A stretch of DNA of 64,000 nt from Spirosoma fluviale (GTDB lineage Bacteria; Bacteroidota; Bacteroidia; Cytophagales; Spirosomataceae). Shown in pieces: positions 80 to 9,884 of the stretch (positions within the stretch are counted from its first letter, which is position 1; every line of letters begins with the position of its first letter). Both the position numbers and the translations under genes were made by a program. The stretch spans positions 1-64,000 of the forward strand of contig CAMDJW010000008.1 of assembly GCA_945901025.1 (NCBI GenBank), written 5' to 3'. The notes beneath the pieces are model-generated. The model did not search any database, was not told where the DNA came from, and saw only the letters and a program-made list of their open reading frames with translations.

Positions 80-1156
80 TTAATTATTTTTCGAACCTGA
101 ATCGATCCACGATTTAATTTTGCTGATTTCGCAGGAAGAAATACTGACGCTTGCTGAGGGCATGGCGATGTAACCGGCCAAATGAGCCACGGAGCCATAT
201 AATTTACCATTTAGCGCATAGGTATAAACGTTGGCATAAGTGGTTAAATCAATTGCCCCTTGAGGTTTAGTTCCACTATGGCAACCGGTGCAGCTAGCTT
301 GTAAAATGGGCGTGATGTCTTTAGCATAGCTCATGTTCGTCGTGATGCAAGCAGTCCCAGAGGCCTCGCAAGAATTATTTTTCGCCCCTTGTTTGATCCA
401 AGTTAAGACCAAAGCGATGTTCTCTTTCGAGAAAGCGGCCATGGGTGGAGGAGGCATTCTGTCCTCCCCGGTTTCCAATAAACTCGTGTAGAGTTCACTT
501 GAAGTGGGGTTTTTGGTATTTACCTCTTTGATAATATTAGTATAGTCAGTTAAAATCACGCCATCTTTTTTGCTAATCGCATCATGGCAACCGCTCATGG
601 CACAGTTGGAGACTATTAAAGGAAGAATTTTTTGCTTAAAATATACGGTATCAGGATTGCAAACAACGTTTGTGGTAGGCGGGTTTGTCGGCGTGGTGAT
701 GGTGACAATCGGATTTACAGGATTAGTCGGTTTTAAATCTACGAGAATTGCGCCTGCTAGGTAGGAACCGATAATCCATTTCTTCACCATAGTAAGTTCG
801 CAAGATGTCAAAGAGCTTGACGCTGAAGGCATGGGGGAATAGCCAGGCAAGTGCATCATGGAGCCATATAATTTCCCATTTTTCACATAGAGAATAATTT
901 TATCGTAGGTTGATAAATCAACGTTTCCAGAGGGAGCTGTGGCATTATGACAAGAAATGCAATTGTTTTGAATGATGGGCCAAATGGATTTGTCAAATGA
1001 AATAATAACCGTATCGCATAAAGAAGCTGTAGGTCCCGGGGTCACAGGTGTTGTTGTTCCAGGGGTTTCTCCCGGTTTTATCGGCAAAGGAGTGTTTTTG
1101 TCGTTTTGGCATGCGAAAATTATACCCAGTAAAAAAATTACACGGATTCTTTTCAT
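80..1156 (-). CDS. Three-haem planctomycete-type cytochrome c lipoprotein
   Basis: A 358-residue exported lipoprotein with a type II signal peptide ending at Cys16 (IIFAC). A Thr/Pro-rich linker is followed by three c-type haem modules. The haem motifs are C66-I-S-C-H70, an unusual CX4CH motif C185-AMSG-C190-H191, and C289-T-G-C-H293. Modules 1 and 3 are close internal copies: both carry NGKLYGS, an HL-GY segment, MPSAS as a possible distal Met ligand, and a following SCE. Module 2 differs and has a MPPPPM segment. It is the last gene of a minus-strand operon with YceI, a DUF5777 barrel and a Rieske protein, about 88 bp after YceI. I infer an envelope electron carrier; the exact partner is not visible. 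The family assignment as a c-type cytochrome is firm, the role is inferred. Confidence 0.85.
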   Translation of the reverse strand: MKRIRVIFLLGIIFACQNDKNTPLPIKPGETPGTTTPVTPGPTASLCDTVIISFDKSIWPIIQNNCISCHNATAPSGNVDLSTYDKIILYVKNGKLYGSMMHLPGYSPMPSASSSLTSCELTMVKKWIIGSYLAGAILVDLKPTNPVNPIVTITTPTNPPTTNVVCNPDTVYFKQKILPLIVSNCAMSGCHDAISKKDGVILTDYTNIIKEVNTKNPTSSELYTSLLETGEDRMPPPPMAAFSKENIALVLTWIKQGAKNNSCEASGTACITTNMSYAKDITPILQASCTGCHSGTKPQGAIDLTTYANVYTYALNGKLYGSVAHLAGYIAMPSASVSISSCEISKIKSWIDSGSKNN

Positions 1157-1244
1157 TTTTTTTGGTTAAATTTTTACTGGAATCTAGGGCAATGTGTTTA
1201 TATATATATCAACGAACCAAGGAATCATTTGAAAATTTAAATCC

Positions 1245-1784
1245 TTATTTCTTGACATAATTTATTTTGCTACTCACTCGGATGACTTCGGCGATTTTAG
1301 CAAAAACAATTTTGGGAATGTCGATTTTGTAATCAACTAATTTGATGTCAAATTGGCAATTAAGACTAATTTGATCTCCAGTGGAGACAATGGTACCTTT
1401 AATTTCGATGGATCTTGTCACTCCGTGTATGGTTGCTGAGCCAGCAGCCGTTACTGAGTAGGTGCCGGGAACTTTTAGGTCGACTGATTCTCTGATTTTT
1501 CCTTTGAAAGTAGCACTGGGGAATTTATCACTTTCTAAATAATTTTCATTGAAATGCTCTTGCATTAATTTGTTAGGGAAAACGAAATTCGTGACACGCA
1601 TTTGTACTGCAACTTCATTGTTATCGGTGTTAATGATACTGCCTACTTGCTTATTTAACGCGTCGATATCCTCGAGAGGAGTTTTTGAAAAGAAAGAAAC
1701 CTCTCCGTTTTGTGCCATGTATAGTTGGCCATTTACCTGAAAACTAAAAAGAATTAGTCCCAATACTGCGATTAAATACCTCAT
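1245..1784 (-). CDS. YceI family periplasmic lipocalin-like protein
   Basis: A 179-residue protein with a cleavable signal peptide (ends VNGQ, about residue 19). The YceI signature is visible: alternating beta strands, the ESDKFPSATFKG segment (residues about 84-95) typical of the family, and a C-terminal IDIPKIVFAKIAEVIRV segment. YceI proteins form a lipocalin-like barrel that binds isoprenoid lipids such as quinones. The start codon overlaps the stop of the upstream DUF5777 gene by 4 bp, so the two are translationally coupled. In this operon with a Rieske protein and a multihaem cytochrome, a role as a quinone or isoprenoid carrier is a reasonable inference, not shown by the sequence. Confidence 0.9.
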   Translation of the reverse strand: MRYLIAVLGLILFSFQVNGQLYMAQNGEVSFFSKTPLEDIDALNKQVGSIINTDNNEVAVQMRVTNFVFPNKLMQEHFNENYLESDKFPSATFKGKIRESVDLKVPGTYSVTAAGSATIHGVTRSIEIKGTIVSTGDQISLNCQFDIKLVDYKIDIPKIVFAKIAEVIRVSSKINYVKK

Positions 1785-2710
1785 TTCTTATTTTTTTTAT
1801 CTGGTTCAAAGCTAAATGTTCTCGCCATATTAAATCCATAAAATATGTCGGCATTGGCCCAAGTACCCGTGGTTTGGCTGATGAAATGTTTTTCAATCAT
1901 GCCTTTGGAATTTGTGAAGTGCAATTGAAAAACGTGGCCGCCCGTTTCAATATCAAATCCGATGGAAAATGAATCTTGGTAAGGGTAAGGTGTGCCGGAC
2001 GTTTCCAAGAAATTTTGAGTATCCACGATATTCTTGTAATATTCAGCCGACAAACTTAGCCTGTTGGTCAACTTATATCTTCCCCCCATACCCAATGAAT
2101 ATAAGTTATTGTCGAAATAAACGGACTCAACTTTATTGTTGTGCAAAACGGTCGGCATAATCTGCAAGGATAATTTATCGGTAAACTTTCTGGCGATTAA
2201 CAATTGGCCCATGTATGTTTGTCGCTGTAAATTATTCTCATAGCGCATCATATTTCCTGAAGGCAGTGTATAGCCTGTTGGCATCGTGTTCGTTGCCAAA
2301 CTTCCATACATAGTCAGTGTAATAGGCATGGCATTCGATTGCCTCAAAACCTTATATTTGCTATAAAAATCATACGTTTTCTCAATCGTTGATCTTCCCA
2401 TTCCCACGAGCCAAACATCACTTATCCCATATTCCAGTCCTAATCTGATTTTGGCTTCATCTAATCCCAGGAAGTTATCCATAAACCCTGAATTTAAAGC
2501 ACCAAATCGATGTGAAATCCAAAAATTCAAATGTTTTTTGGCAATCGTTTCTACCGTCTGCCCATTGATAAATCGAGTGCCTTTAAAAGTAGCTTGAGTA
2601 TAGGTGGTTTTTTTAGCATCCTCTTGATTAAGCATGTTTAACAAATCATCCTGGCCTAAAAGTTGAGCAGCATGGAGCATTCCAAAAAGGAATAAGATCT
2701 TAGCTTTCAT
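1781..2710 (-). CDS. DUF5777 family outer-membrane beta-barrel protein
   Basis: A 309-residue protein with a signal peptide (ends LLGQ, about residue 19). An N-terminal region (DLLNMLNQED) is followed by alternating amphipathic strands such as YGISDVWLVGMGRS and the final FNMARTFSFEP. The pattern matches DUF5777, a Bacteroidota family predicted to form an outer-membrane barrel of unknown function. It starts 1 bp after the Rieske stop codon and overlaps YceI by 4 bp, so all three are one transcription unit. It could supply a pore that lets the associated redox proteins pass electrons or ligands across the outer membrane; this is inference from context only. Confidence 0.8.
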   Translation of the reverse strand: MKAKILFLFGMLHAAQLLGQDDLLNMLNQEDAKKTTYTQATFKGTRFINGQTVETIAKKHLNFWISHRFGALNSGFMDNFLGLDEAKIRLGLEYGISDVWLVGMGRSTIEKTYDFYSKYKVLRQSNAMPITLTMYGSLATNTMPTGYTLPSGNMMRYENNLQRQTYMGQLLIARKFTDKLSLQIMPTVLHNNKVESVYFDNNLYSLGMGGRYKLTNRLSLSAEYYKNIVDTQNFLETSGTPYPYQDSFSIGFDIETGGHVFQLHFTNSKGMIEKHFISQTTGTWANADIFYGFNMARTFSFEPDKKNKK

Positions 2711-2711
2711 G

Positions 2712-3146
2712 TTAAGAAAAAACCCGAAGGCTTGTGTTTGTCAATGTGGTTTTGTAGGCAGTAATTCCTTTGCTACTTACATTATTGGTTTTTTCACCCG
2801 TAATACTAAATGTTGCCCCATGAGCTGGACATGAAAATCCAGATCCATTATACATCACTTGAGGTTGGCCTTCGTGAGAGCAAATTTGAGTAACTGCAGC
2901 AAAACTGGTAGCTGAAATTCGTGCGATAACTACTTTATTGATCGTGATGTATTTGCCAACGGTATTCAACGCACTATACGAAGCATTTGTTAAATCCAAC
3001 GTAAAATCAATAGTTCCCGAAGGGGAGACCCCCGATTCATTTTGGCAAGAACTTAATGCACTAGCGCCACAATATACGGCCATTAAGGAAGCTCCCTTTA
3101 ATCCCAACGATTTTAAAAAGTCATTTCTTTTAATTCTGTTTTCCAT
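2712..3146 (-). CDS. Rieske [2Fe-2S] lipoprotein
   Basis: A 144-residue protein with the two Rieske ligand boxes C89-S-H91 and C106-PA-H109 flanked by the expected Gly residues, so it should bind a [2Fe-2S] cluster through two Cys and two His. The N-terminus (KRNDFLKSLGLKG) is a degenerate Tat-type signal and is followed by a lipobox ending at Cys34 (LSSC). Export in folded form and membrane anchoring are therefore likely. It is the first gene of the operon with DUF5777, YceI and the three-haem cytochrome. The size suits an arsenite-oxidase or bc1-like small Rieske subunit, but no large catalytic partner is present in this operon. Confidence 0.9.
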   Translation of the reverse strand: MENRIKRNDFLKSLGLKGASLMAVYCGASALSSCQNESGVSPSGTIDFTLDLTNASYSALNTVGKYITINKVVIARISATSFAAVTQICSHEGQPQVMYNGSGFSCPAHGATFSITGEKTNNVSSKGITAYKTTLTNTSLRVFS

Positions 3147-3451: not shown

Positions 3452-4870
3452 TTAATTCGGGTTCACCCTAAACACCATTCCGGGATTTTCTACACCGATG
3501 TACATGTAACCATCTGAGCCCAACTTCACATTACGTAATCGGCCTACATTGATTAAAATCTTCTCTTGTTTCACGACCTTGTTATCTTGAATGACACAGC
3601 GATTGAGGTAGTTGAATCGCAAGGACCCAATCATTAAGTTGCCTTTCCAAGCTGGATATTTATCAGTATTCATGAAAGTCAAACCAGACGGAGCAATCGA
3701 TGGTACAAAGTAGGAGACAGGTTGTTCCATCCCTTCTTTTTTCGAGATATTGGTAATGGGTTTTCCATCATAGTTAATTCCGTAGGAAATGACAGGCCAA
3801 CCGTAATTACGACCAGCTTGGATGATGTTAATTTCATCGCCACCCCGCGGGCCATGTTCCGTTTCCCAGATATCACCGGTCCATGGATTTGTCGTTAATC
3901 CTTGCGGATTTCTTTGTCCATATGAGTAAATACTAGGATGAAATTTAGCAGGATCTTTCCCAACAAATGGATTGTCCTTAGGGACTGATCCATCGTCATT
4001 TAACCGATGAATTTTTCCATTGTCATTATCCGTTTCTTGTGGAAATACTTTTTCCATGCCCCTTTCTCCAACAGAGAAAAACATATATCCTTTCTTGTCA
4101 AACGTGATTCGAGAGCCAAAATGTTGGAATGTTTTAGTATATGGAAGCGACTCAAATAGTTCTTGGGACTCCACCCACATGTTGTTTTTTATTTTTCCTC
4201 GAACAATTCCAGTTGACGTCAACGTGGTCGAGCCATCCATTTTGGATTTAGAATAAGACATGTATACCCAACCATTTTCCGCAAATTTTGGATGCAATGC
4301 AATGTCCAAAAGTCCTCCTTGGCCTTTAGCCATCACGGATGGTGTTCCAGTAATTTCTGTTTTATTTCTTTTTTGATCGACCAAGTACAATTTCCCCTTA
4401 CGGTCGGAAATCAAATAATCTTTATTTGGCAATTGTGCAAATCCCCATGGACTATCAAATCCGGTGGCAATTGTATCCAATTTAATGGTTACACCTTCTG
4501 AAACAAAAATATTTGATTTAGGCTTGTTCTCGAATTTGTATTGCTCCACTCCAGCCAAATTTTCAATAATCAAATCAGCTAATTTATCGATGTCTTTAGG
4601 AGATAATATGCCTTTCCAAGTAGGCATTCCCATATCATTGTATCCATTCGTGATGCTGGCAACTAATTCTGGTTTTGTATTTCCATGTTTCCATTTACGA
4701 TCCACAAATGCTTCTACTTTTTCACCGTGACATGAGGCGCAATATTGCGTGTAAATCTTTTCTGTGGGCTCATCAATAACAGCTTTTTTAGGAGCCGTAT
4801 TTAACGACATGATGGATAGAGTGGCTGTGGCGATAAGGCCAACAATCATTATTTGTTTATACATGGTCAT
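3452..4870 (-). CDS. Cytochrome c / PQQ-dependent sugar dehydrogenase fusion
   Basis: A 472-residue exported protein. After a signal peptide (residues about 1-25) comes a cytochrome c domain with C44-AS-C47-H48 and a possible distal Met in the MGMPTW segment. From about residue 120 it continues as a glucose/sorbosone dehydrogenase beta-propeller (GSDH family; motifs GSRITFDKKGYMFFSVGERG, YSYGQRNPQG, EHGPRGGDEINII, GRNYGWPVISYG). These are the PQQ- and calcium-binding elements of soluble aldose dehydrogenases (Asd/YliI-like). It should oxidise aldoses at C1 in the periplasm and pass electrons to its own haem. It stands alone, convergent to nothing and upstream of the kelch gene on the other strand. 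Confidence 0.9.
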   Translation of the reverse strand: MTMYKQIMIVGLIATATLSIMSLNTAPKKAVIDEPTEKIYTQYCASCHGEKVEAFVDRKWKHGNTKPELVASITNGYNDMGMPTWKGILSPKDIDKLADLIIENLAGVEQYKFENKPKSNIFVSEGVTIKLDTIATGFDSPWGFAQLPNKDYLISDRKGKLYLVDQKRNKTEITGTPSVMAKGQGGLLDIALHPKFAENGWVYMSYSKSKMDGSTTLTSTGIVRGKIKNNMWVESQELFESLPYTKTFQHFGSRITFDKKGYMFFSVGERGMEKVFPQETDNDNGKIHRLNDDGSVPKDNPFVGKDPAKFHPSIYSYGQRNPQGLTTNPWTGDIWETEHGPRGGDEINIIQAGRNYGWPVISYGINYDGKPITNISKKEGMEQPVSYFVPSIAPSGLTFMNTDKYPAWKGNLMIGSLRFNYLNRCVIQDNKVVKQEKILINVGRLRNVKLGSDGYMYIGVENPGMVFRVNPN

Positions 4871-6109: not shown

Positions 6110-8422
6110 ATGAAAATATTTAAAATCATCATTCCTGTTGTCCTAGCTGCTATTTGCATGTATGCTGCTTGGAGCTGTTCCGATGCACAGGGTTCGGACA
6201 CATCCATGCCAGATGTGGTTGATTATAACTTTCACATTCGTCCCATTCTTTCTGACAGATGTTTCAAATGTCATGGACCGGATGCCAATAAGCGACAAGC
6301 AAATTTACGTTTAGATACGAAGGAGGGCGCTTATGCGGCGTTTAAGGATAATGCAAAAGCACATGCAATTGTGCCCGGAGATCCTTCCCAATCGGATGCT
6401 TTTCAGCGTTTAATTACCAAGGACACTGCACTCAGAATGCCTACTATGAAATCCAATTTGGTGCTTACTCAGCATGAAATTGATTTAATTGAAAAGTGGA
6501 TTGATCAAGGCGCTGTTTATAAGCCACATTGGTCTTTTATAAAACCCGTAAAGCCTGAATTGCCTGAGGCTGATGAGGCTTGGGTCCGAAACGACATTGA
6601 TTATTTTGTATATGTCAAAATGAAGGAAAAGGGTTTGAGCCCTTCAAAAGAAACGGATAAGGAGCGACTTTTAAAAAGGGTTTGCCTTGATTTGACCGGA
6701 TTGCCACCTACACTTGAAATGCAGGATCGTTTTTTAAATGACACAGATCCTAAAGCGTATGAGAAAATTGTGAATGAGTTGTTGGCCAACAAACATTTCG
6801 GGGAAAAAATGGCTGCACCGTGGTTAGACGTAGCCCGTTATGCGGACTCGCATGGATATCAAGATGATGGTTTAAGGACAATGTGGCCTTGGCGCGATTG
6901 GGTTATACACGCATTCAATTCCAATTATTCGTACAAGAAATTTGTGACTTGGCAGTTGGCAGGCGATTTAATTCCGGGGGCCAACAAAGAAATGTTATTG
7001 GCCACGGGGTTCAACCGAAATCATAAAATTACCCAAGAAGGTGGAGTGATCGACGAGGAGTATCGTGTGGAGTATATCAATGATCGGACGAGTACTTTTG
7101 GGAAATCATTTTTGGCATTAACTTTTGAATGTTCCAAGTGCCATGATCATAAGTACGATCCGATCTCGCAAAAAGACTATTATAGTACCTATGCATTTTT
7201 TAACCAGGTGCCTGAAAAAGGGTTATTTGGTACCATTGATGCATCTTTTGCTGATCCACCGAACATGCGAATTACCTCAAAGGACGTCAATAGTTTGTTG
7301 AAATTCATTAACAAGCGGGATACATTTGCGGTCGATGTGATGGTGATGAAGGATTCGGCTAATATGCGCAAAACGCATATATTAAGTCGGGGCAATTACG
7401 ATATGCCTACGTACGAAGTGGGCGTGGGAATTCCGAAAAGTATTCTTCCTTATTCGACGGCCAAATATGGTCAAAACAGATTGGGTTTAGTGCGTTGGAT
7501 GTTTGACGATGCGAATCCTTTAACATCTCGTGTGTTTGTGAATCGGATTTGGGCACAGTTTTTTGGTCGAGGAATTGTGAAAACTTTGGGTGATTTTGGG
7601 ATGCAGGGAGAGTTACCTACGCATCCGGAATTATTGGATTGGTTGGCCGTGGACTTCAAAGCACATCATTGGAACATGAAGCGTTTGGTGAAACAAATTG
7701 TGATGTCGGCTACGTACCAACAATCTTCCGATGCTACTTCAGCCGCATTAAAATCAGATCCAGAAAACATCTATTTATCGCACTCACCGCGTCTCAGATT
7801 ACCTGCTGAGAATGTGCGTGATCATGTCTTGGCATCGGCAGATATTTTAAATCCTGAAATTGGCGGTCCTAGTGTAAAACCTTATCAGCCAAAGGGTTTA
7901 TGGGAAATGGCTACTTCTGGCCGTGGATCCTTAATGACCTACATTCAAGATCATAATCAAGATTTGTATCGCAGAGGCATGTACGTTTTTATCAAAAGAA
8001 CGGTTCCTCCTCCGTCTATGTTGATTTTTGATGCCAGTAATCGGGATCAGTGTGAGGTCCAAAGAGGAAGGACAAATACACCTTTACAAGCTTTAGTTAT
8101 GATGAATGATCCACATGTGATGGAGAGTTCACGGGTTTTAGCGAGTCATTTATCGGCTGAGAAGGGAAGTTTAGATGTGGTTTTATCAAAGGCTTTTAGG
8201 AAAATTATTTGCAGAAAACCAAGTGAGAAAGAGTTGGTCATTTTAAAGCGTTATTTTGAAAATGAGCAGGCATCCTTTAAGAAGGAGCCTAATAAAATTG
8301 AAAAACTGATGAAGATTGGAGAATATAAAAAAGATCCGGGAGCGGTACGTTTTTATACGGCGGCATTGATGCAGACGATCCAATTAATATATAACATGGA
8401 GGAGGCTTTAATTCGAGTTTAA
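6110..8422 (+). CDS. PSD1 / planctomycete cytochrome c domain protein (DUF1549-DUF1553)
   Basis: A 770-residue protein with an N-terminal membrane/lipoprotein signal (AAWSC). It then has a planctomycete-type cytochrome c domain (PSCyt1, haem motif C51-FK-C54-H55), DUF1549 (PSCyt2, about residues 155-370) with a second CxxCH at C341-SK-C344-H345 followed by DHKYDP, and DUF1553 (PSD1, about 460-750). This is full length for the family. The catalytic activity of PSD1 proteins is unknown; they recur with DUF1501 proteins in Planctomycetota and some Bacteroidota and are associated with carbohydrate use. It leads an operon: the DUF1501 gene follows after 10 bp. An envelope redox enzyme is likely, with two haems. 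Confidence 0.93.
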   Translation: MKIFKIIIPVVLAAICMYAAWSCSDAQGSDTSMPDVVDYNFHIRPILSDRCFKCHGPDANKRQANLRLDTKEGAYAAFKDNAKAHAIVPGDPSQSDAFQRLITKDTALRMPTMKSNLVLTQHEIDLIEKWIDQGAVYKPHWSFIKPVKPELPEADEAWVRNDIDYFVYVKMKEKGLSPSKETDKERLLKRVCLDLTGLPPTLEMQDRFLNDTDPKAYEKIVNELLANKHFGEKMAAPWLDVARYADSHGYQDDGLRTMWPWRDWVIHAFNSNYSYKKFVTWQLAGDLIPGANKEMLLATGFNRNHKITQEGGVIDEEYRVEYINDRTSTFGKSFLALTFECSKCHDHKYDPISQKDYYSTYAFFNQVPEKGLFGTIDASFADPPNMRITSKDVNSLLKFINKRDTFAVDVMVMKDSANMRKTHILSRGNYDMPTYEVGVGIPKSILPYSTAKYGQNRLGLVRWMFDDANPLTSRVFVNRIWAQFFGRGIVKTLGDFGMQGELPTHPELLDWLAVDFKAHHWNMKRLVKQIVMSATYQQSSDATSAALKSDPENIYLSHSPRLRLPAENVRDHVLASADILNPEIGGPSVKPYQPKGLWEMATSGRGSLMTYIQDHNQDLYRRGMYVFIKRTVPPPSMLIFDASNRDQCEVQRGRTNTPLQALVMMNDPHVMESSRVLASHLSAEKGSLDVVLSKAFRKIICRKPSEKELVILKRYFENEQASFKKEPNKIEKLMKIGEYKKDPGAVRFYTAALMQTIQLIYNMEEALIRV

Positions 8423-8432
8423 TACCAATACG

Positions 8433-9884
8433 ATGGAAAATGAATTTTTAAATAGTAGGTTAAATGTAACAAGAAGGCACTTTTTCGGACAGGCAGCTGC
8501 TGGAATTGGTGGTTTAGCCTTGGGGTCTTTGTTGGTCCCTGACTTATGGAAAGGTGATTCGGCGGCGAATGCAATGCCTTTGGGAATGGCACATTTTGCG
8601 CCCAAAGCCAAGCGAATCATCTATTTATGCCAAAACGGTGCCCCGTCGCAGTTGGAGAGCTTCGACTACAAACCCACATTAGTCGCTCGCTCTGGAGAGG
8701 ATTTGCCGGCGTCTATTCGAGGAAATCAGCGATTAACGGGAATGACGGCAAGCCAAGATAAGTTTCCGTTGATGGGCTCGTTTTACGGCTTCAAACAATA
8801 TGGACAATCTGGGGCATGGATTAGTGATATCTTTCCTAATATAGCCAACATCGCGGATGATCTTTGTATCATTCGTACCATGAATACAGATGCGATTAAT
8901 CATGATCCTGCTTTGACTTTTTTACAGACAGGTGCACAGGTGGGTAATAGGCCAAGTATGGGTGCTTGGATGTCGTATGGATTAGGTAGTGAGAATAAAA
9001 ATTTACCCGCATTTTGTGTGTTGTTGTCGCGAGGAAGGGGCAATGGTCAGGGAGTATATTCCAAATTATGGACCAATGGATTTTTAGATTCTTTGCATCA
9101 AGGAGTTGTTTTTAGTAGTTCTGATGACCCTATTTTGTATTTGAATGATTCGGATGGGATTGATAAAAATGCGCGCAGGAGGATGCTGGATGAGTTAGCA
9201 GAGTTGAATCATTTGGGATTTGATGAGAATAAAGATCCTGAGGTGGAGGCAAAAGTCCAACAATATGAAATGGCATATCGCATGCAAACGGCTGTTCCTG
9301 AATTAACGGATTTATCTAAGGAACCTGATCATATAATTAAGATGTATGGTCCGGATTGTTTAGTTCCTGGAACCTATGCGGCGAATGCTTTATTGGCCAG
9401 AAAGTTGTCTGAATCAGGAGTTCGTTTTGTTCAATTGTATCATCAAGGATGGGATTCTCATGGAAATTTGCCCAAAGAAATGGCCATGCAGGCACAAGAT
9501 GTGGATCGCTCGTCGGCAGCATTAATTACCGATTTAAAGCAAAGAGGATTGTTGGATGAGACCTTGGTTATTTGGGGAGGTGAATTTGGCCGAACAAATT
9601 ATTGCCAAGGAACATATACAGTCGACAATTATGGTCGAGATCATCATCCTCGTGCCTACAGTATTTTTATGGCTGGTGGAGGCGTAAAGCCAGGAATAGT
9701 GTATGGTGAAACGGATGAATTTGGATATAATGTGGTGAAAGATCCGGTACATATTCATGATTTCCATGCAACAGTTCAACATTTAATGGGACTTAATCAT
9801 GAACAAATGACGTATAAGCATTTAGGCAGAAGGTATCGCTTAACTGATATTGCCGGTAATGTTCTTCCTGGCTTGTTGGCCTAA
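8433..9884 (+). CDS. DUF1501 family protein, Tat-exported
   Basis: A 483-residue protein with a clear twin-arginine signal (TRRHFFGQAAAGIGGLALG, residues about 14-32). The rest matches DUF1501, a sulfatase/alkaline-phosphatase-superfamily-like fold: AKRIIYLCQNGAPSQLESFDYKP near residue 55, INHDPALTFLQTG near 150, and the C-terminal VIWGGEFGRTNY...GRDHHPRAYSIFMAGGGVKPG metal-site region. DUF1501 genes nearly always follow PSD1 genes, as here (10-bp gap), and the two probably work as partners in the periplasm. The chemical reaction is not known. Confidence 0.93.
   Translation: MENEFLNSRLNVTRRHFFGQAAAGIGGLALGSLLVPDLWKGDSAANAMPLGMAHFAPKAKRIIYLCQNGAPSQLESFDYKPTLVARSGEDLPASIRGNQRLTGMTASQDKFPLMGSFYGFKQYGQSGAWISDIFPNIANIADDLCIIRTMNTDAINHDPALTFLQTGAQVGNRPSMGAWMSYGLGSENKNLPAFCVLLSRGRGNGQGVYSKLWTNGFLDSLHQGVVFSSSDDPILYLNDSDGIDKNARRRMLDELAELNHLGFDENKDPEVEAKVQQYEMAYRMQTAVPELTDLSKEPDHIIKMYGPDCLVPGTYAANALLARKLSESGVRFVQLYHQGWDSHGNLPKEMAMQAQDVDRSSAALITDLKQRGLLDETLVIWGGEFGRTNYCQGTYTVDNYGRDHHPRAYSIFMAGGGVKPGIVYGETDEFGYNVVKDPVHIHDFHATVQHLMGLNHEQMTYKHLGRRYRLTDIAGNVLPGLLA

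Follow-up and report, generated by a model that had tools for sequence, protein, structure and literature searches.

In the MtrCAB porin–cytochrome conduit, a large barrel encloses a decahaem cytochrome. An outer-membrane barrel is likewise combined with c-haem proteins in a cluster of four neighbouring genes at positions 80–3146 of the 64 000-nucleotide stretch of Spirosoma fluviale DNA analysed here (the start of contig CAMDJW010000008.1 of assembly GCA_945901025.1; the whole stretch is hereafter called the window), although this barrel is predicted to have 12 strands and the haem motifs are three separate ones in a single lipoprotein, for which reasons an MtrCAB-like conduit was rejected as a model. 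The cluster also encodes a Rieske [2Fe-2S] lipoprotein and a YceI-family lipocalin. To judge from the available portion of PMC9113575, the LcoA–BcnA(–PsrA) system, which detoxifies lipid peroxyl radicals in Burkholderia, is similar in that a YceI lipocalin is encoded with a membrane redox partner and a bound quinone is proposed as the cofactor, as we propose for the window; the partner there is a cytochrome b561, whereas the window combines Rieske and c-haem lipoproteins with a barrel of the outer membrane. By analogy, we regard LcoA–BcnA as the known system nearest in logic. In Cbp2D/Cbp2E (X158) of Cellvibrio, a YceI domain works with c-type cytochrome domains, but within one multidomain protein that carries a carbohydrate-binding module and, in the extract of PMC8981238 considered, neither a barrel nor a Rieske domain.

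In the open-licence literature searched, we found neither the name DUF5777, the family of the window barrel, nor the combination of barrel, YceI and Rieske or haem protein (the YceI–Rieske and YceI–cytochrome c results were unrelated, as far as the portions of text at hand go), and nothing on Bacteroidota conduits, on NrfD with ethylbenzene dehydrogenase in Bacteroidetes or on a Planctomycete cytochrome with YceI. The individual families are known already, whereas their combination did not appear in this literature, in line with a preliminary description of the locus that had called the joint system uncharacterised.

With evenly balanced confidence, we read the four genes as encoding a redox relay of the Bacteroidota outer membrane in the form that the window lineage has; its redox function is our inference, and its likeliest use would be antioxidant. 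The core of such a relay would comprise an outer-membrane DUF5777 barrel, a YceI protein in the periplasm that probably holds a quinone and a lipid-anchored one-electron carrier; the carrier would be the Rieske protein together with the three-haem protein in the window and usually one small haem protein elsewhere. All four genes are complete open reading frames (ORFs) of the minus strand and follow one another as Rieske lipoprotein (2712–3146, 144 aa), DUF5777 barrel (1781–2710, 309 aa), YceI (1245–1784, 179 aa) and three-haem lipoprotein (80–1156, 358 aa). The tight packing described earlier agrees with the coordinates, there being a 1 bp gap between the first two genes (position 2711), a 4 bp overlap between DUF5777 and YceI (1781–1784) and an 88 bp gap before the haem gene (1157–1244). 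Each product scores above the curated Pfam cut-off for its own family: PF00355 at 30 bits (cut-off 20.3) for the Rieske protein, PF04264 at 50.8 bits (23.7) for YceI, PSCyt1 at 39.8 bits (22) and Cytochrome_CBB3 at 39.4 bits (27) for the haem protein, and PF19089 at 288.1 bits (23.1) for the barrel, a full-length member of a family that Pfam names as of unknown function. These matches and the three haem motifs read in the sequence bear out the family names given previously. The window begins with base 1 of contig C8 and overlaps contig C17 there, its positions 1–149 being the same as the final 149 bases of C17.

PF19089 was found in 153 of the 395 sampled Bacteroidota genomes (152 over the cut-off), in 97 of the 150 sampled genomes of the window's family and, in either sampling, in none of 14 control genomes; since it mostly stands beside the same kinds of redox genes, it provides a concrete gene set for deletion and assay. 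Its neighbourhood was compared in 119 regions (39 from the same family with 39 barrels, 80 from other families with 81), which were hand-picked among the matches listed and not drawn at random, with most genera represented once or twice; the end of C17 was one of the 120 regions fetched. Genes were called by a longest-ORF rule at a length of at least 70 aa, which misses small genes, and were assigned to the operon if they shared the strand of the barrel, lay no more than four positions away and were separated by gaps of 200 bp or less. By this rule, 35 of the 39 same-family barrels are accompanied by YceI, 35 by a Rieske protein and 13 by a haem protein; Rieske, barrel and YceI are contiguous at 32 of them and the full four-gene order is present at 10. 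Among the 81 barrels of other families, YceI accompanies 60, a Rieske protein 4 and a haem protein 63, and none has the full order. A Rieske or haem protein stands by the barrel in 36/39 and 67/81 cases, respectively. The background, 488 genes of at least 100 aa located at least five genes from the barrel in the 119 loci, contained no YceI, no Rieske and six haem patterns, and chance adjacency was rejected on these figures. The redox parts and the barrel therefore form a real recurring unit, as had been supposed. Gene order across Bacteroidota, chosen beforehand as the test of the preliminary description, gave a divided answer: the exact four-gene order is local, whereas the core of barrel, YceI and one-electron carrier is phylum-wide, so that the unit as first delimited was too wide for general conservation.

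The named loci (the best 80 of 578, which lean to close relatives) include YceI in 70 cases, Rieske in 39, haem protein in 44 and the full order in 12; none of the three was seen at L233 and L256, where the locus starts ∼ 110–170 bases before the match. Counterparts of the haem lipoprotein in 12 named loci carry two or three haem motifs. Within this best 80, the closest named isolates by barrel are three Aquirufa species (∼ 70% identity; L189–L191), which have two tandem Rieske genes before the barrel, and a freshwater-type metagenome-assembled genome (L183) has a barrel that is 95% identical; a relationship of the window lineage to Aquirufa is therefore probable.

The partners of the barrel are exchanged in a regular manner. 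Outside the Rieske clade, the partner slot is mostly occupied by a small haem protein, often with a CX4CH rather than a CXXCH motif. On a maximum-likelihood tree of 121 barrels, with contexts scored less strictly (within four genes on the same strand, whatever the gap), Rieske contexts require 6 changes compared with a shuffled mean of 33.8, and 38 of the 40 fall in one 41-row clade (support 95), L143 and L167 standing separately. The tree comes from a quick search with SH-aLRT (Shimodaira–Hasegawa-like approximate likelihood ratio test) support only, and 37 of its 118 inner branches are weak, which is why we rely on the clustering and not on deep branching; the program flagged the long branches of a 13-row clade and of L146 as possibly grouped in error. 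The Rieske protein of L167 differs in type and has bc1-like cysteines, so the slot was apparently filled on more than one occasion by Rieske proteins of different kinds. The use of different one-electron carriers in one slot argues for electron transfer as the shared function.

In the 13-row clade (support 100), YceI is missing from the vicinity of every barrel, the two YceI genes of L158 lying by its other barrel. Typing of similarity clusters placed 4Fe-4S proteins at 10/13 of these loci, NrfD at 9/13 and EB_dh at 7/13 (in L158 on the other strand), and neither 4Fe-4S nor NrfD was found in L105, L121 and L142. Pfam typing identified 4Fe-4S and NrfD in L108, L101 and L134, EB_dh in L134, L101 and L132, and multihaem profiles (a six-haem protein) in L134 and L155. 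Judged by gene content, YceI and the quinol-oxidoreductase module (NrfD/4Fe-4S) look like alternative electron entries. Where YceI, the presumed quinone carrier, is missing, a presumed quinol oxidoreductase seems to take its place, and it is chiefly on this ground that we regard YceI as the point of electron entry in the window version. A possible generalization, which we offer tentatively, is a modular DUF5777-based unit with exchangeable entries (YceI or an NrfD/4Fe-4S complex) and one-electron lipoproteins (c-haem or Rieske) through which electrons from the inner-membrane quinone pool would act at the outer membrane. As an observation in its own right, ten loci with a 4Fe-4S gene and no YceI near the DUF5777 barrel (L101, L108, L120, L132, L134, L139, L155, L158, L160 and L173), nine of the ten with an NrfD-type gene and some with EB_dh, represent an apparent quinol-linked system.

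Clustering of barrel relatives with NrfD, 4Fe-4S, EB_dh and six-haem proteins would also suit a trans-outer-membrane electron conduit, in which electrons would pass from the quinone pool via YceI, Rieske and haem to an outside acceptor (metal, humic matter or an oxidative polysaccharide enzyme) with the barrel as the path. Fusion of YceI and cytochrome domains in Cellvibrio Cbp2D, where the extract of PMC8981238 speaks of cytochrome-initiated reduction of polysaccharide monooxygenases, points the same way, and so do He_PIG repeats on one haem partner (L144) and, at L104, partner-slot proteins with SprB repeats, which have a CX4CH motif and no cytochrome profile match; these repeats suggest an outside location. 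However, the predicted barrel has only its 12 strands, the window operon encodes no multihaem wire and its lipoproteins lack the optimal surface-export motif described below, so that we consider such a conduit unlikely. The preliminary description had assembled the four genes into a chain carrying electrons across the envelope: the recurring redox unit stands and the class of function was sensibly guessed, but passage straight through a modelled barrel with 12 strands and neither a multihaem wire nor a known cofactor site is doubtful.

That description had staked itself on a barrel fold for DUF5777, and the AlphaFold model (60-sequence alignment) is a confident prediction of a 12-stranded barrel with mean pLDDT 92.8 and pTM 0.84. 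The protein has a conserved IETGGHVFQLHFTNS segment. A profile search of solved structures gave two weak matches. With 1000 chains of the Protein Data Bank realigned to the model, the best structural matches were FapF (Z 17.7, rmsd 3.6 over 217) and KdgM (Z 17.4, rmsd 2.1 over 167), followed by NanC (Z 16.8) and the COG4313 channel 4rl8 (Z 16.6). As these four are 12-stranded barrels of differing functions, the fold alone names no function. NalP (Z 16.1) and FadL-type channels (Z ∼ 12) also matched, and no MtrB-type barrel was present among the matches listed, an absence that carries no weight. Resemblance to 4rl8, KdgM and the FadL-type proteins could be taken to indicate a channel that passes hydrophobic or other small molecules, its cargo being bound by YceI and modified or detoxified by the redox proteins, and bacterial lipocalins are described as capturing antibiotics in the portion of PMC5350466 at hand; however, such matches are common to 12-stranded barrels and the one-electron partners that persist do not call for a transport role, which leaves a channel rather unlikely. 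That the barrel serves specifically to export or assemble the redox lipoprotein is, in our view, highly improbable; one could cite for it the polypeptide transporters FapF and NalP among the matches and the frequent lipobox of the partners (79/109 haem and 69/80 Rieske proteins), but this would leave YceI unexplained and a common fold demonstrates no function.

The YceI protein has an N-terminal hydrophobic segment and a confidently predicted lipocalin fold (35 sequences, pLDDT 89.1). Its model matches nine solved YceI-type entries at Z 18.3–19.8, the next unrelated barrel scoring 11.8; these include BcnA, BcnB, E. coli YceI, TT1927b and the Saccharophagus polyisoprenoid-binding domain (2x32, 2x34), the polyisoprenoid-binding entries being 2x32, 2x34 and 1wub. 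According to the available part of PMC9113575, isoprenoid or ubiquinone-8 is present in most solved YceI structures, and the YceI–cytochrome b561 system limits lipid peroxidation, with re-reduction of the lipocalin-bound ubiquinone suggested. We take the window YceI, one of two in the genome, to be periplasmic and probably to hold an isoprenoid quinone.

The cluster ligands of the window Rieske protein are CSH-x14-CPAH, and the CxH...CxxH pattern is intact in 79 of 80 distinct Rieske sequences. High-potential Rieske proteins of the bc1/b6f type have extra disulphide cysteines (CxHxxC...CxCH), which are absent in the window protein and present in 1/80 (L167). Together with general knowledge, their absence suggests that its potential is lower than that of quinol-oxidizing bc1 Rieske proteins, and makes direct quinol oxidation by it doubtful. 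The haem lipoprotein carries the motifs CISCH, CAMSGCH (of the CX4CH form) and CTGCH in three single-haem segments with Pro/Thr-rich stretches between them.

The window Rieske signal reads KRNDFLK...SSC, that is, R-x-x-F-L-K. R-x-x-F is found in 80/80 distinct sequences and a twin arginine in 0/80, the window included, so that a canonical twin-arginine signal was rejected and the Tat export previously ascribed to this protein does not hold in the strict sense. Still, TatC is encoded in the genome and export of the Rieske protein in folded form is therefore plausible. As for location, the optimal lipoprotein surface-export (LES) motif of C. canimorsus is C-X-K-(D/E)2 after the lipidated Cys, other species using SDDDD or SDDFE (PMC5080379, in the part considered). 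It occurs in 4 of the 69 Rieske proteins with a recognized lipobox, all four being the barrel-adjacent copy of a tandem pair. Acidic residues follow the lipid Cys in 65/69 Rieske proteins versus 23/37 background lipoproteins of the same loci (p 6e-5), two sets recognized by different lipobox patterns, and are not enriched in the haem partners (54/79). Given these differences, the unenriched haem partners and the absence of the motif from the window proteins, we do not claim surface exposure.

ECF (extracytoplasmic function)-sigma-type genes lie upstream on the same strand at 15/39 same-family and 12/81 other barrels, which suggests stress or surface control. At L070 (3686–5744) and 14 other same-family loci, the sigma-type gene is upstream of Rieske–barrel–YceI, usually with a ∼ 460 aa protein between; among six of these proteins scanned, OMP_b-brl_2 is over the cut-off in L104, below it in L070 and L100, and not matched in L079, L080 and L092. 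An envelope redox sensor coupled to the sigma factor, which is Pfam-typed in L070, L080, L092 and L100, would fit this arrangement, but it seems improbable because no sigma gene adjoins the window operon, most loci lack one, the ∼ 460 aa partner is poorly typed (1/6 over the cut-off) and the pair may merely control expression. The barrel is absent from all 23 sampled genomes without a haem-copper oxidase and present in 153/372 with one (p ∼ 1e-5, not corrected for descent), three of the oxidase-lacking genomes (G477, G489 and G524) being deduced from numbering gaps on the assumption that both draws comprised the same 395 genomes.

Based on the LcoA–BcnA precedent, the oxidase association and the upstream sigma genes, we prefer, with modest confidence, a role in antioxidant protection or quinone recycling at the outer membrane to extracellular respiration. 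At the inner face of that membrane, YceI would in the proposed relay deliver or recycle electrons bound to quinone, the lipid-anchored Fe-S and haem proteins would swap single electrons with it, and the barrel would dock these proteins and open access to the membrane or the outside; its likeliest use would be to keep outer-membrane quinone or lipid reduced, as in LcoA–BcnA, and not to respire an outside acceptor.

Several observations weigh against the proposed relay. PF01292 has no match in the window genome, so that cytochrome b561, the known YceI partner, is absent here and was rejected as a candidate. YceI is missing beside 4/39 and 21/81 barrels, and no YceI, Rieske or haem gene accompanies the barrel under the operon rule at 1/39 (L073) and 4/81 (L135, L140, L152 and L154); L135 is truncated by a contig end, and L140 and L152 have YceI, the latter also a haem gene, adjoining the barrel on the other strand. 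One Rieske-like partner, L137 (7393–7827, minus strand), does not have the full ligand pattern, its usual CxxH being missing. The optimal C. canimorsus export motif is missing from both the window Rieske (C-QNESG) and haem protein (C-QNDKN), with the limit that, in the same part of PMC5080379, the motifs of other species differ. The closest structural matches of the barrel are generic 12-stranded barrels with many functions, and residues on the more polar face of its strands, a face chosen by hydrophobicity and not by coordinates, are not more conserved than those on the other (2.60 versus 2.65, p 0.59), so a specialized pore gains no support. Descent confounds the oxidase association, a single family (f18) accounting for 14 of the 20 genomes listed as lacking the oxidase. 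Finally, the YceI ligand, the flow of electrons, the location of the lipoproteins and the purpose of the system are all deduced from sequences and models.

The preliminary description stated that no catalytic oxidoreductase was included, which is true of the four genes, but the next gene upstream (3452–4870, minus strand), possibly linked to them, encodes by Pfam an N-terminal cytochrome c domain and a glucose/sorbosone-dehydrogenase-like domain. In L183, L184 and L192, a gene of the same two-domain type immediately precedes the Rieske gene. The window protein may be an electron donor or unrelated; the 305 bp gap to the Rieske gene favours a separate transcript that stops short of the operon. 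Further along the window (6110–9884, plus strand), a PSCyt1–PSCyt2–PSD1 gene is followed by a DUF1501 gene whose product has a true N-terminal twin arginine (TRRHFF). At other loci, a cluster of small proteins lies near the barrel, haem protein and YceI (L118, 6021–6410, and 23 further loci), one of which was typed as OB-fold-like tRNA_anti-like (PF12869).

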